Of a stretch of 36,653 bases of DNA, positions 11,467 to 32,953 are shown piece after piece. The position numbers and the translations under genes are program-made. Within the stretch, counting starts at the first letter, position 1; every line of letters begins with the position of its first letter. Under the pieces are notes generated by a model. It did not search any database, was not told where the DNA came from, and worked only from the letters and a program-made list of their open reading frames with translations. Source of the DNA: an uncultured Prevotellaceae bacterium. Lineage in GTDB: Bacteria; Bacteroidota; Bacteroidia; Bacteroidales; Bacteroidaceae. The stretch spans positions 1,514 through 38,166 of the forward strand of contig CADBHI010000018.1 of the NCBI GenBank assembly GCA_902794405.1. The letters are read 5' to 3'.

Positions 11467-13140
11467 ATGCAAATCGATATGAGAACTAACTATATCTTCG
11501 TCACAGGCGGCGTGGTCTCTTCACTTGGCAAGGGCATCATTTCAGCCAGCATCGGTAAGCTGCTGCAGGCACGCGGCTACAAGGTCACGATTCAGAAGTT
11601 CGACCCCTACATCAACATCGATCCCGGGACGCTGAACCCCTACGAGCACGGCGAATGCTATGTCACCGAGGATGGTTTTGAGACCGACCTCGACCTGGGC
11701 CACTACGAGCGCTTTACGGGGATTCATACCACACGGAACAACAGTATCACGACGGGCCGCATATATAAAACGGTAATCGACCGCGAGCGTCACGGCGACT
11801 ATCTGGGTAAGACGATTCAGGTGGTGCCGCACATCACGGACGAGATTAAAAGGAGAATGTTACGGGAAGCCCCCCTGTCGTCCCCCGAGGGGGACACTAT
11901 AGTTCCTGCGCTCAAAACTAATGAAGCCCCCTCGGGGGCAGTAGGGGGGGCTTTCGACTTCATCATCACCGAGGTAGGCGGCACCATCGGCGACATCGAG
12001 AGTGCGCCGTTCATGGAGGCCATCCGACAGCTGCGGTGGGAACTGGGGCGCAATGCCGTCTGCGTACACCTGACCTACGTGCCCTACCTGAAGGCTGCCG
12101 ACGAGCTAAAGACCAAACCGACGCAGCATAGCGTAAAGGAGCTGCAGGGAATGGGAATACAGCCCGACATCTTGGTGCTGCGTACGGAGCGTCATCTCGA
12201 CGACGGCATGAGAATGAAGGTGGCCTCGTTCTGCAATGTCGATCTGGAATGTGTGGTGCAGAGTGAGGATATGCCCTCCATCTACGAGGTGCCGGTGAGC
12301 ATGCAGAAGCAGGGACTGGACGCCGCTATTTTGCGGAAGATTGGTATTCCTGTGGGCGAGACACCGGCGATGAAGCCCTGGCATGACTTCATACAGAAAC
12401 AGAGGAGCGCTTCACGCGAGGTGAATATCGGTCTGGTGGGCAAATACGACCTGCAGGATGCCTACAAGTCGATACGTGAGAGCCTGAACTTGGCGGGCAT
12501 CTACAACGACGTGAAGGTGAAGATTCATTTCGTGAATAGCGAGGAGTTGACGACGGAAAACGTCGCCACGCGACTGGGAGGCATGGCGGGCATAGTCATC
12601 TGTCCGGGCTTTGGCCAGCGCGGTATCGAGGGTAAGATCATTGCCGCAGAATATACGCGTACCAACGATATCCCCACCTTCGGCATCTGCTTAGGCATGC
12701 AGATGATGGTCATCGAGTTTGCAAGGAACGTACTGGGATACCAGGACGCGAATAGCAGCGAGATGGACGAGAAGACGCCGCATAACGTCATTGACATGAT
12801 GGAGGAGCAGAAGAGCATTACGCAGATGGGCGGCACGATGCGACTGGGGGCTTACGAGTGCGAACTTGTAAGGGACAGCCGTGTTTACGAGGCTTACGGC
12901 AAGAAGGCTTTGATTAGCGAGCGACACCGACATCGCTATGAGTTCAACAACGCTTATAAGGAGGAGTACGAGAAGAATGGAATGAAATGTGTTGGTATCA
13001 ACCCTGCCGCCAATTTGGTAGAGATAGTTGAGATTCCAGAGAAGAAATGGTATATCGGGACCCAGTTCCATCCTGAATATTCATCGACTGTACTTCATCC
13101 GCATCCACTGTTTATGAGTTTCATAAAAGCCTGTAAATAG
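11467..13140 (+). CDS. pyrG: CTP synthase with an in-frame insertion
   Basis: The 557-residue enzyme aminates UTP to CTP using glutamine. The synthetase domain begins MRTNYIFVTGGVVSSLGKGI. The C-terminal class I amidotransferase domain has nucleophile Cys in FGICLGMQ and the His-Glu pair in QFHPEYSS. The ATG at 11467 has AAAGGA seven bases upstream; a second ATG at 11479 is possible. Residues about 134-162 (from EAPLSS to GAVGGA) interrupt the family sequence between KRRML and FDFIITEVGGT, next to the Mg-binding Glu region, and are encoded by a palindromic repeat. Flanking family motifs are intact, so the enzyme is probably functional. It is coupled to dapL and purF. Confidence 0.95.
   Translation: MQIDMRTNYIFVTGGVVSSLGKGIISASIGKLLQARGYKVTIQKFDPYINIDPGTLNPYEHGECYVTEDGFETDLDLGHYERFTGIHTTRNNSITTGRIYKTVIDRERHGDYLGKTIQVVPHITDEIKRRMLREAPLSSPEGDTIVPALKTNEAPSGAVGGAFDFIITEVGGTIGDIESAPFMEAIRQLRWELGRNAVCVHLTYVPYLKAADELKTKPTQHSVKELQGMGIQPDILVLRTERHLDDGMRMKVASFCNVDLECVVQSEDMPSIYEVPVSMQKQGLDAAILRKIGIPVGETPAMKPWHDFIQKQRSASREVNIGLVGKYDLQDAYKSIRESLNLAGIYNDVKVKIHFVNSEELTTENVATRLGGMAGIVICPGFGQRGIEGKIIAAEYTRTNDIPTFGICLGMQMMVIEFARNVLGYQDANSSEMDEKTPHNVIDMMEEQKSITQMGGTMRLGAYECELVRDSRVYEAYGKKALISERHRHRYEFNNAYKEEYEKNGMKCVGINPAANLVEIVEIPEKKWYIGTQFHPEYSSTVLHPHPLFMSFIKACK
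11866..11954. repeat. Palindromic element inserted in frame in pyrG
   Basis: Two 28-bp arms (11866-11893 and about 11927-11954) are near-inverted repeats, starting GAAGCCCCCC and ending GGGGGGGCTTTC, around a core of about 33 bp. Each arm contains its own small palindrome (CCCCCGAGGGGG or CCCCCTCGGGGG). The element is read through as about 29 residues without a stop. Its ends resemble those of the intergenic palindrome at 32886-32953, which begins GAAGCCTCCCCC. Confidence 0.8.
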
Positions 13141-20267: not shown

Positions 20268-21857
20268 TTATCTTACGGCAGTAAAGTTCTCGTTCAGCGT
20301 GAAGGTCTTCTCGTAGCCCTTGGTCTTCACGGTATAGGTATTGCCAGTCTTGAAGGCGGGACAGCTGACGAGACTGGCACTTCGTTTCAGTGAGAAGGGA
20401 ATGGTAACACTCTCGATGAGCTTGCCCTCAGCGTCGTAGATATTGACGGGTTCTTCCTTCACAATGTTAATGCCGATCAGTAGTACCGTAGGCTGCTTGG
20501 CGGTCTGGTTGGTAGGCACAGAGGGCATCTCGCCCATACCGCCGCCAACCGAGAAGATGGTACCGCCCTCGACAACAAGCGGTGCAAAGTCGCAGTCGAG
20601 TCCTTCCTCGGGTGATCCTACGGCACTCCAGGCATAGACAGTGCCACCCCGGATTACGATGGCAGGCTCTGCGTCCTCACTGTTATTGTTACCACCGAAG
20701 GGCATAAAGAAGCCACTCTTAGGATTGGAGTCGACGGCATCGTTGCCCTTGCTACGGGCTGTGACGTTGGCACCGTTGAACTCGATGATAGCGTTGGCAT
20801 TGATAGCGTCATCGGGGCTGAATACGTCGACGTTACCGCCGTTGAAGACAATACCGTCTTTACCCTCGATTCCCTCAGCACCGGCGGTTGCAGTGCGTAC
20901 GGTGACGTTGCCGCTGTTGATGGTAATCTTGCCCTTCGAGGCAATGCCTTTGGTCGAGGCGTAGTACTTATGCTTGCCGGCAAACCCTCCGAAGCCGCCT
21001 TCCCCGCCGTCTTCCTCATCATTCTCGTCACGATTGCCGAAATCGGGGAAACCACCCATGGGGAAACCTCCCATTGGGAAACCTCCTCGCATGGTGCTGT
21101 CGTTGCCAAATGGGGGTAACCCGCCACCACCAAAGCCTGGGAATCCACTACGTTGTGTGCTGTCATTCCCGAATGGGGGAAAGCCTCCCATCGGAAAACC
21201 TCCTCTCATAGTGCTGTCATTGCCAAATGGTGGAAACCCACCTTCCGGCATTTGGAAACCTCCCTCCGGCATGCCGGGGAACCCGCCAAAGCCAAAGGGC
21301 TTCTCGCCGAGGTTGTCGCCCGAAGTCGTCACGTTCAGCGTCAGCTCTTCTATGGTAATGTCTTTCTTCGTCTTGATACCGCGGCATCCGTCGCCTGTGG
21401 CAATGATATTCAGTGTACCCTTACCCGAGAGCAGCAGCTTGTCCTTTGCCCAGATGGTAGCGGCCTTGTGGTTGGCGGTATCGTTGCAAGCGGTAATCGT
21501 GAGTGTGTTCACCGTACCCTTGGCTACCGTCACCTCCACCTTCTTCTTGTTCTTCAGGTCTATCGGCGCACCCTCCTGACTGGTCAGTTCCAGACCGTCG
21601 AGCGTCACATGGGCCTTGCCGGCGGTCTTCAGAATCAGCTGTCCGTTGTCGCTTTTTCCCTTCAGACGCAAGGTCAGCTTGTGCTCTTTGTACTGGCTCT
21701 CGATACGTACGCTGGCACCGTCAGCACTTACCGTCACACTGTCCTTTACTTTCTGTGTCACCTTCGCCGTCGAACCGTTATAGCGGATGGTGATGTCCTC
21801 AGCCTTGCATACGCTGCCCATCAGCAAGGTCAGTGCACATAATAGAATCTTTTTCAT
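20268..21857 (-). CDS. Secreted beta-helix carbohydrate-binding-like protein (DUF4353/Cthe_2159 type) with a Gly/Pro/Phe repeat insert
   Basis: The protein has 529 residues from the ATG at 21857; the -7 box at 21887-21879 overlaps the upstream ATG at 21875 and rules it out. Signal peptide MKKILLCALTLLMGSVCKA. The body shows repeated short strands with Gly-Ile and Asp motifs (GDGCRGIKTKKDITI, TKGIASKGKITINSG, GAEGIEGKDGIVFNGGNV), as expected for a right-handed beta-helix related to carbohydrate-binding-domain (DUF4353) proteins. Residues about 187-290 form a low-complexity insert with three copies of a PPFGNDST...GGFP motif and an acidic patch (DENDEEDGGEGG). Extracellular or surface location is likely; ligand unknown. 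The HAD gene follows in the same operon. Confidence 0.75.
   Translation of the reverse strand: MKKILLCALTLLMGSVCKAEDITIRYNGSTAKVTQKVKDSVTVSADGASVRIESQYKEHKLTLRLKGKSDNGQLILKTAGKAHVTLDGLELTSQEGAPIDLKNKKKVEVTVAKGTVNTLTITACNDTANHKAATIWAKDKLLLSGKGTLNIIATGDGCRGIKTKKDITIEELTLNVTTSGDNLGEKPFGFGGFPGMPEGGFQMPEGGFPPFGNDSTMRGGFPMGGFPPFGNDSTQRSGFPGFGGGGLPPFGNDSTMRGGFPMGGFPMGGFPDFGNRDENDEEDGGEGGFGGFAGKHKYYASTKGIASKGKITINSGNVTVRTATAGAEGIEGKDGIVFNGGNVDVFSPDDAINANAIIEFNGANVTARSKGNDAVDSNPKSGFFMPFGGNNNSEDAEPAIVIRGGTVYAWSAVGSPEEGLDCDFAPLVVEGGTIFSVGGGMGEMPSVPTNQTAKQPTVLLIGINIVKEEPVNIYDAEGKLIESVTIPFSLKRSASLVSCPAFKTGNTYTVKTKGYEKTFTLNENFTAVR
20985..21295 (-). repeat. Imperfect tandem repeats coding the Gly/Pro/Phe insert
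   Basis: The segment encodes GGFPPFGNDSTMRGGFPMGG and two close variants, then shorter GGFPMGGFP units. The DNA copies of the CCATTTGGCAATGACAG-like block are near-identical, so the array could expand or contract by recombination in multiples of three. Confidence 0.75.
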
Positions 21858-21878
21858 CTTTTGTTTCGCAATCATGGC

Positions 21879-29948: not shown

Positions 29949-29949
29949 T

Positions 29950-29979
29950 GTCACACGGAAATCACAGAAATCACAGAAA
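29950..29979 (+). repeat. Dispersed GTCACACGG repeat, copy 1
   Basis: A 30-bp word beginning GTCACACGG and continuing with two AAATCACAG units. It is identical to 32522-32551 and matches the reverse strand of 30585-30614 at 29 of 30 positions. It starts two bases past the xynE stop. Confidence 0.85.
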
Positions 29980-29990
29980 AGCCTCCACCA

Positions 29991-30055
29991 CTCTCCCCGC
30001 CCCTCTCCTCTCCGCTCTCCCCGCCACTCTCATCTCCGCTCTCCCCGCCCCTCCG
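29991..30055. repeat. 24-bp C-rich tandem repeat
   Basis: Units at 29991-30014 and 30015-30038 and a partial third at 30039-30055 all begin CTCTCCCCGCC and the full units end in CTCCG. Related C-rich blocks occur at 32557-32620. Confidence 0.8.
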
Positions 30056-30128: not shown

Positions 30129-30163
30129 TCTACTTTACTGGCAAGATATTACAGTTCCCTTAT

Positions 30164-30219
30164 ACCCCGCCCCGCCCTTCGGGCACCCCGCCCCTTAGAG
30201 GGGTGGGGAGTATAATAAA
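30164..30219 (+). repeat. 56-bp GC-rich repeat, copy 1
   Basis: It differs from 30461-30516 by one base (T/A in GCCCTTCGGGC versus GCCCTACGGGC). It contains two hairpins, one formed by CCCCGCCCCTTAGAGGGGTGGGG-type pairing, and ends AGTATAATAAA. It may double as a terminator for convergent transcripts. Confidence 0.85.
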
Positions 30220-30449: not shown

Positions 30450-30460
30450 AACTTACTTAC

Positions 30461-30516
30461 ACCCCGCCCCGCCCTACGGGCACCCCGCCCCTTAGAGGGG
30501 TGGGGAGTATAATAAA
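30461..30516 (+). repeat. 56-bp GC-rich repeat, copy 2
   Basis: A near-identical direct copy of 30164-30219. The two copies flank the 241 bp holding the inverted repeat and the multi-hairpin element, as if that stretch lay between direct repeats. Confidence 0.85.
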
Positions 30517-32516: not shown

Positions 32517-32521
32517 CTTTT

Positions 32522-32551
32522 GTCACACGGAAATCACAGAAATCACAGAAA
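32522..32551 (+). repeat. Dispersed GTCACACGG repeat, copy 3
   Basis: Identical over 30 bp to copy 1 at 29950-29979. As there, a C-rich block follows immediately, so the two families seem to travel together. Confidence 0.85.
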
Positions 32552-32556
32552 GCGCC

Positions 32557-32656
32557 CCTCCGTTCTCCCCTCCGCTCTCCCCGCCCCTCTCCCAGGACCT
32601 CTCCCCTCCGCTCTCCCCGCCCCTCAAGGGGAGGGGATGGGGGCGGGGTGTGTAAC
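32557..32656 (+). repeat. Composite C-rich/G-rich dispersed repeat
   Basis: C-rich words close to CTCCGCTCTCCCCGCCCCT occur twice and lead into CCCCTCAAGGGGAGGGGATG and a G-rich tail ending GTGTGTAAC. The tail (32624-32656) matches the dapF insert at 29 of 33 positions. Confidence 0.75.
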
Positions 32657-32885: not shown

Positions 32886-32953
32886 GAAGCCTCCCCCTCA
32901 TATCTATGTCCCCCCTTTATAGGGGGACAGATATTAGAGGGGGCTGAGGCTTC
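32886..32953. repeat. C/G-block palindrome (family of the pyrG insert)
   Basis: The left half starts GAAGCCTCCCCCTCATATCT and the right half is its imperfect inverse ending GAGGCTTC, around CCCCCCTTTATAGGGGGAC. The GAAGCC ends and C5/G5 blocks resemble the element inside pyrG and the core in asnB. Confidence 0.7.

Follow-up and report, generated by a model that had tools for sequence, protein, structure and literature searches.

Rickettsia palindromic elements (RPEs), repetitive palindromes of the REP type, miniature transposable repeats of the MITE type and PINSR of Prevotella intermedia are the closest described systems. For R. conorii, the review PMC10969869 gives 44 RPE insertions from ten families, nearly half of them in open reading frames (ORFs). 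REPs, according to PMC3733652, are mostly extragenic, with some intragenic copies reported for several species; in two species of Xanthomonas, recB carries a REP at about the same site. None of the best-ranked literature matches, a set with subscription journals largely outside it, described coding palindromes from Prevotella or Bacteroidales.

Here we analyzed a window, that is, the whole stretch of 36,653 nt from an uncultured Prevotellaceae bacterium, in which the pyrG gene carries an in-frame palindromic element; the repeat family of this element is referred to below as type A, a label of our own. RPEs as a kind are short palindromes lying in frame in unrelated genes, with several families per genome and a conserved peptide, and type A resembles them in its many genomic copies, its conserved in-frame phase and the existence of homologues without the insert. 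The RPEs, known here by description, differ in host organisms and sequence, and type A measures 87–89 bp versus about 150 bp in PMC10969869. Type A was genic in 62 of 65 copies from other species, compared with nearly half of the R. conorii RPEs in that text. Also unlike in RPEs, one loop hosts eight palindrome types across species and native loop residues are missing. The system is one that works like the RPEs in Bacteroidales, with a more strictly genic location and with shared landing loops.

The likeness to the REP/REPIN-RAYT system (GTAG and CGTC families, PMC3733652) lies in the hairpin half-units and inverted dimers; the differences are the mostly extragenic location of REPs, an unsupported link to RAYT in our case and no conserved GTAG foot as judged by eye. 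Coding fusions of MITEs (ERIC/RU and QMITE of Coxiella; PMC10969869, PMC2759123) are similar as small non-autonomous repeats able to add in-frame peptides, whereas here no constant target duplication (judged by eye in four proteins) and no parent insertion sequence (searched as Y1_Tnp) were seen and the genic share was high. PINSR is likewise a short dispersed Prevotella repeat, but PMC4755523 describes it without terminal inverted repeats and most likely without protein-coding sequence.

Palindromic Element in the pyrG Gene

The source genome (G000) comprises 3.82 Mb, and the window lies on its contig C18. Its nearest named relatives by PyrG were mostly Prevotella, Prevotellaceae and Bacteroidales assemblies, including those from sheep abomasum and those with RUG in their names, which we take to stand for rumen uncultured genome. 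The following features were recognized:

11467..13140, plus strand: pyrG, CTP synthase of 557 aa, the host gene (translation; PDB CTP synthases with E-values down to 5.5e-170)
11866..11952, plus strand: in-frame palindromic element, type A, 29 residues EAPLSSPEGDTIVPALKTNEAPSGAVGGA, residues 134–162 (repeat, fold and translation)
11867..11904, plus strand: left inverted-repeat arm (repeat search)
11916..11953, plus strand: right inverted-repeat arm (repeat search)
11882..11893, plus strand: left core hairpin CCCCCGAGGGGG, the core of the repeat family (G000:C18:13395-13406)
11927..11938, plus strand: right core hairpin CCCCCTCGGGGG, 45 bases from the left core, a multiple of 3 (G000:C18:13440-13451)

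A preceding sequence-only reading had placed an 89-bp palindrome in frame in pyrG at 11866..11954, which was confirmed by the repeat search, the fold and the translation. The 28-bp inverted arms that it described are present but imperfect: the best ungapped 28-nt arms matched at 22 of 28 positions (15–18 in 15 shuffles of pyrG), and the arms of 38 nt each were 74% complementary. The RNA fold of the palindrome had an energy of -59.6 kcal/mol (z -5.35), and none of 200 shuffles was as low. The insert does code for the 29 residues attributed to it; however, the extra coding DNA amounts to 87 nt, the final 2 of the 89 belonging to the next Phe codon, and the net gain is 22–23 residues over the usual loop of 17–18 aa. 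The gene is a single open frame from 11467 to 13140, through the insert as well, and judging from the open frames the insert is probably translated as part of the protein. It is flanked by KRRMLR and FDF. The claim that the site between KRRML and FDFIITEVGGT is normally a short loop agreed with both relatives and PDB CTP synthases; the latter lack the insert and have a short loop there, the alignment breaking between query residues 135 and 161. An AlphaFold model (35 sequences, single chain; pTM 0.85, mean pLDDT 82.8) predicted residues 136–160 to be unstructured, with pLDDT under 50, between a helix at 124–132 and a strand at 165–170.

Other repeats were also present in the window, which gave no Rfam match at the gathering score. 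A palindrome regarded earlier as similar to that of pyrG does exist between genes at 32886-32953 (-42.4 kcal/mol), but its sequence is unrelated and blastn found no similarity to the pyrG element. A 61-nt direct repeat (30159-30219 and 30456-30516, 97% identical) represents another GC-rich hairpin type between genes; near it lies a 105-nt repeat (29949-30053 and 32521-32625, 83%). Three copies of a 66-nt direct repeat occupy 21060-21242 within the minus-strand ORF 20268-21875.

Type A Copies in the Source Genome

The expectation of many genomic copies was borne out by blastn of the element against G000, which gave 48 matching pieces with both strands of the palindrome counted, and by the 12-base core, which occurred exactly 34 times, at 24 sites. 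With one mismatch allowed, the core gave 60 matches versus 9 for a control pattern; 58 of the 60 were grouped into 43 sites, those at C102 and C137 being left out. With a minimum ORF length of 250 aa and 20 codons required on either side, 35 of the 43 sites were inside ORFs; this count includes one-mismatch cores, and a few of the sites resemble native gene sequence (e.g., cobyric acid synthase at C1:18161). When only exact-core sites were considered, 19 of 24 were inside ORFs of that length and 5 were not.

Both half copies and full copies, the latter being inverted doubles, occur. All 10 G000 sites with two exact cores had a spacing of 39, 45, 48 or 51 bases, divisible by 3 in each case, and 9 of them were inside ORFs. 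At five related two-core sites that include one-mismatch cores, the spacings were 35, 40 and 44 in ORFs and 79 and 57 outside them, only 57 being a multiple of 3.

Pfam families were assigned to 29 of the 30 scanned host ORF entries (of 35). The 30 entries represent 29 distinct genes, since two of them are one rhamnogalacturonan lyase gene with two matches; this gene contains two half-units at different places (L010 and L176, G000:C6:85879 and 86449). The host genes include those for RNase R, RF3, alanyl-tRNA synthetase (AlaRS), Obg, MnmA, a MiaB-like radical SAM enzyme and IspH, as well as ClpB, aminopeptidase P, phosphomannomutase (PMM), a pyruvate formate-lyase-like enzyme and an AcrB-type transporter. 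The segment is absent from the structures solved for homologues of RNase R, MnmA and RF3. In Obg the alignment to the solved homologue breaks at the segment and resumes weakly, so absence is less clear there, and the half-unit in AlaRS of G000 gives no clear gap against the solved homologue.

Genic Location and Phase in Other Species

Type A was found in 29 of 150 genus genomes, G000 included. The 65 copies examined in other genomes comprised 40 fetched copies and 25 best hits; L239, which starts directly after a stop, and L245–L247, short pieces inside ORFs, were left out of the count. Inside ORFs lay 62 of these 65, a proportion to be read with the reservation that divergent intergenic subfamilies could be missed because the search query was a genic copy. 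As a control, random 87-nt windows lay inside ORFs in 308/366 and 419/510 cases (82–84%).

The main open phase was recognized by motif, counted per orientation, in 56 ORF copies; L243 resembles this phase in a decayed form, and five other ORF copies are in other phases. The core spacing was divisible by 3 in 54 of 55 other-species copies with two exact cores. Random in silico insertion into ORFs left a long ORF in 273/691 trials for 87 nt (about 40%) and in 161/702 for 89 nt. NCBIfam families were assigned to 14 of 20 scanned ORFs, including GyrB/ParE, LeuRS, ArgRS, AlaRS and IspH; three of the 6 ORFs without a family are other-phase cases. A translational bypass element was also considered and does not fit the open frame through the insert or the triplet spacing of the cores.

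In the AcrB loop, the orientation of type A in G022 is opposite to that in G000. The RGL11 loop is filled in G000 (half copy) and G125 (full copy); an opposite orientation in these two species was considered and dropped, the copies being too symmetrical to tell.

Palindromes in the pyrG Loop of Relatives

Among 80 named pyrG loci, the loop was 16–18 aa long in 7 of the 11 closest (L091-L101); of the 69 farther ones (L102-L170), 68 were readable, with a loop of 17 aa in 67 and 16 aa in one. Thus, the homologues without the segment that the sequence-only reading had predicted do exist in most named relatives.

We also surveyed 75 pyrG genes from 73 genus genomes, which is not a fair sample, as 19 were mostly picked for long matches and the others were best matches; G269 was left out of the table. 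Eight palindrome types were distinguished in the loop: A in 9 genes, B in 3, C in 3, D in 15, E in 2, F in 2, G in 1 and H in 1; a further 7 loops were unassigned and 32 were short. By a less biased measure, 6 of the 27 relatives from the same genus that the first search listed as loci had loops longer than 19 aa. Stop codons were counted within the matched stretch of pyrG in G269, G313, G193 and G093. For each of the eight types, at least one loop outdid all 100 of its shuffles in folding (z -3.2 to -9.8), a level not reached by the type-C loop of G093, one of three of this type, or by the tested half-unit of type D. Copy number was tested for types A, B and D, and all three proved to be repeated in their genomes, type B with 11 pieces in G141 and type D with 91 pieces in G236, both within and between genes. 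A quickly built tree, many of whose forks are weak, required at least 7 changes for type A and 32 for all states. The pyrG loop is, as judged from these comparisons, a landing site common to several palindrome types.

G034 has two pyrG genes, of types F and C (L032, G034:C19:25879-27543; L249, G034:C35:17752-19491), which could be two strains binned together. An assembly or binning artefact might be suspected as the source of the whole pattern, given that most genomes used are fragmented and incomplete; its likelihood is nevertheless negligible, as type B lies in pyrG of the single-contig genome G141, which is 99% complete, and the pattern recurs in many genomes.

Sharing of the 29-residue peptide between G000 and G319, which differ in it at one residue, would also be expected if PyrG of this lineage had a conserved functional loop or domain that is not a repeat. 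We consider this extremely improbable, because dozens of unrelated genes contain the same DNA, nearly all of the more distant named loci have a 17-aa loop, and sister pyrG genes have unrelated loop sequences. Types D to H, which are made of short repeated units, and the free variation of loop length would suit an origin without movement, in which palindromes and short tandem units arise locally in tolerant loops when replication slips or switches template. This is very unlikely, since types A and D share long sequence, including the spacer or core, between unrelated genes. Insertion of a mobile palindrome, as proposed from the sequence alone, is supported instead, and neither genus-wide conservation in non-repeat form nor a single genomic copy was seen. 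That proposal had not foreseen the near-total genic location or the filling of the same loop by other palindromes in related species.

Filled and Empty Loops

The pyrG genes of G319 (type A) and G034 C19 (type F) are sisters with a support of 99. Identical flanks of 105 bp (left) and 74 bp (right) enclose palindromes that are unrelated. The comparison of these two genes (L191 and L032) looks mosaic, with 321/363 identical positions before the loop and 1047/1080 after it.

Filled and empty sites were found in other genes as well. The PMM loop is 8 aa long in 20 of 29 genomes and is filled by a type A half in G000, a D half in G236, and a full D copy in G319; further genomes also have it filled. 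Among 30 AlaRS genes (G179 left out of the table), type A is present in G000, G075, G403, G121 and G319, and a doubled type F in G196. Among 31 IspH genes, G319 and G075 carry type A and G000 a related GC type. The filled PMM, AlaRS and PyrG alleles lack native loop residues; therefore, the element replaces sequence and does not merely add to it. In PyrG, PMM, AlaRS and IspH, visual inspection revealed no constant target duplication, and the usual lack of native residues is unlike what simple transposition leaves.

Age and Possible Transfer Between Species

The pyrG elements of G000 and G319 are identical at 86 of 89 positions and at 27 of 29 third codon positions, while in the rest of the gene 61/121 and 207/390 third positions are identical. 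The third-position comparison, run on codon alignments of pyrG pairs, showed the element to be significantly more alike than its flanks in 4 of 8 pairs, which are not independent because two of the four share a member; the non-significant pairs were three close pairs and one that is not close (p 0.14). The excess of third-position identity indicates that copies are recent, exchanged or constrained at the DNA level. In alaS of G403 and G121, no difference occurs over 99 bp of loop and neighboring sequence, whereas farther third positions are identical at 123/157 and 130/200, which fits recombination carrying the element together with flanking DNA.

This alaS tract and the excess identity in pyrG leave a serious, though less than even, chance that spread between species proceeds mainly by homologous recombination of loop alleles, new insertions being rare. 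The near-identical tract of the G000 and G319 pyrG genes, however, ends at the ends of the element. Moreover, the occurrence of the family in many unrelated genes and the reversed orientation in the AcrB loop of G022 and G000 require new insertion.

The joint occurrence of half-units and inverted doubles corresponds to REP/REPIN geometry, and Y1_Tnp genes were detected in 13 of 24 genus genomes searched, as would be expected of REPINs, i.e., pairs of REP units in inverted order that a RAYT tyrosine transposase mobilizes. We regard this identification as doubtful: Y1_Tnp was absent from G000 (assembly 89% complete), from G236, which is rich in type D, and from G403, a carrier of type A in both pyrG and alaS with a listed completeness of 100%. 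In addition, type A is genic while REPs are mostly extragenic (PMC3733652), and by eye the GTAG foot is absent from its usual place. RAYT was rejected as the driver, there being no consistent link between Y1_Tnp and the carriers. Searches with the element against 50,697 phage and 72,556 plasmid records gave no match (E 1e-5, low-complexity filter on), and the exact half-unit was not found in viral contigs.

Proposed Explanation

The pyrG insert is very probably a copy of a young mobile palindrome family that is nearly confined to the protein genes of a Prevotella-type genus, its in-phase loop copies being tolerated as translated linkers and others being lost by selection. Directly observed were the number of copies, their position in genes and phase, the triplet spacing, filled as well as empty sites, the repeated occupation of loops by different palindromes, and a case consistent with transfer of flanking DNA together with the element. 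A full copy consists of two inverted half-units of about 31 nt, each with the CCCCCGAGGGGG hairpin, around a short spacer. Each strand has one main stop-free phase, with the spacer holding both halves in step. A copy landing in phase in a surface loop would be translated as a flexible linker rich in Pro, Ala, Gly, Ser and Glu and be tolerated, and other landings would be removed by selection. The peptide is presumably retained in the finished enzyme and near neutral, and the element may be moved by a repair process or by a trans-acting transposase.

Insertion plus loss alone does not explain the strict genic residence, because intergenic sites should be tolerated; the small number of intergenic copies suggests that the palindromes are harmful between genes or that new copies pass directly from one gene to another. 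The copies within genes and those between them may belong to distinct lineages. Of the 26 type-D half-units of G236 that matched a search pattern, 13 lie outside ORFs, and 11 of these have TGA at one codon. The same codon is GGA or GTA in all 5 sense-ORF copies, a contrast partly built into the comparison, since no stop can occur within an ORF. The remaining 8, located in ORFs that use another frame, have TGA. There is about an even chance that the palindromes are genome parasites adapted to ORFs, stop-free in the main phase on both strands and triplet-spaced, which copy from gene to gene and between species and share landing loops in essential proteins with unrelated families.

Significance

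Protein-coding palindromes have until now been best known from Rickettsia, together with intragenic REPs in some other species. They now appear in rumen Bacteroidales, with high turnover, and the enzymes that carry them include CTP synthase, alanyl-tRNA synthetase and IspH, which are usually essential. It is a puzzle which agent moves a palindrome so seldom located outside genes, and in-frame repeats of this kind can disturb alignments and gene trees. The filled and empty loops are natural experiments on loop gain by such proteins and offer a means to map permissive loops.
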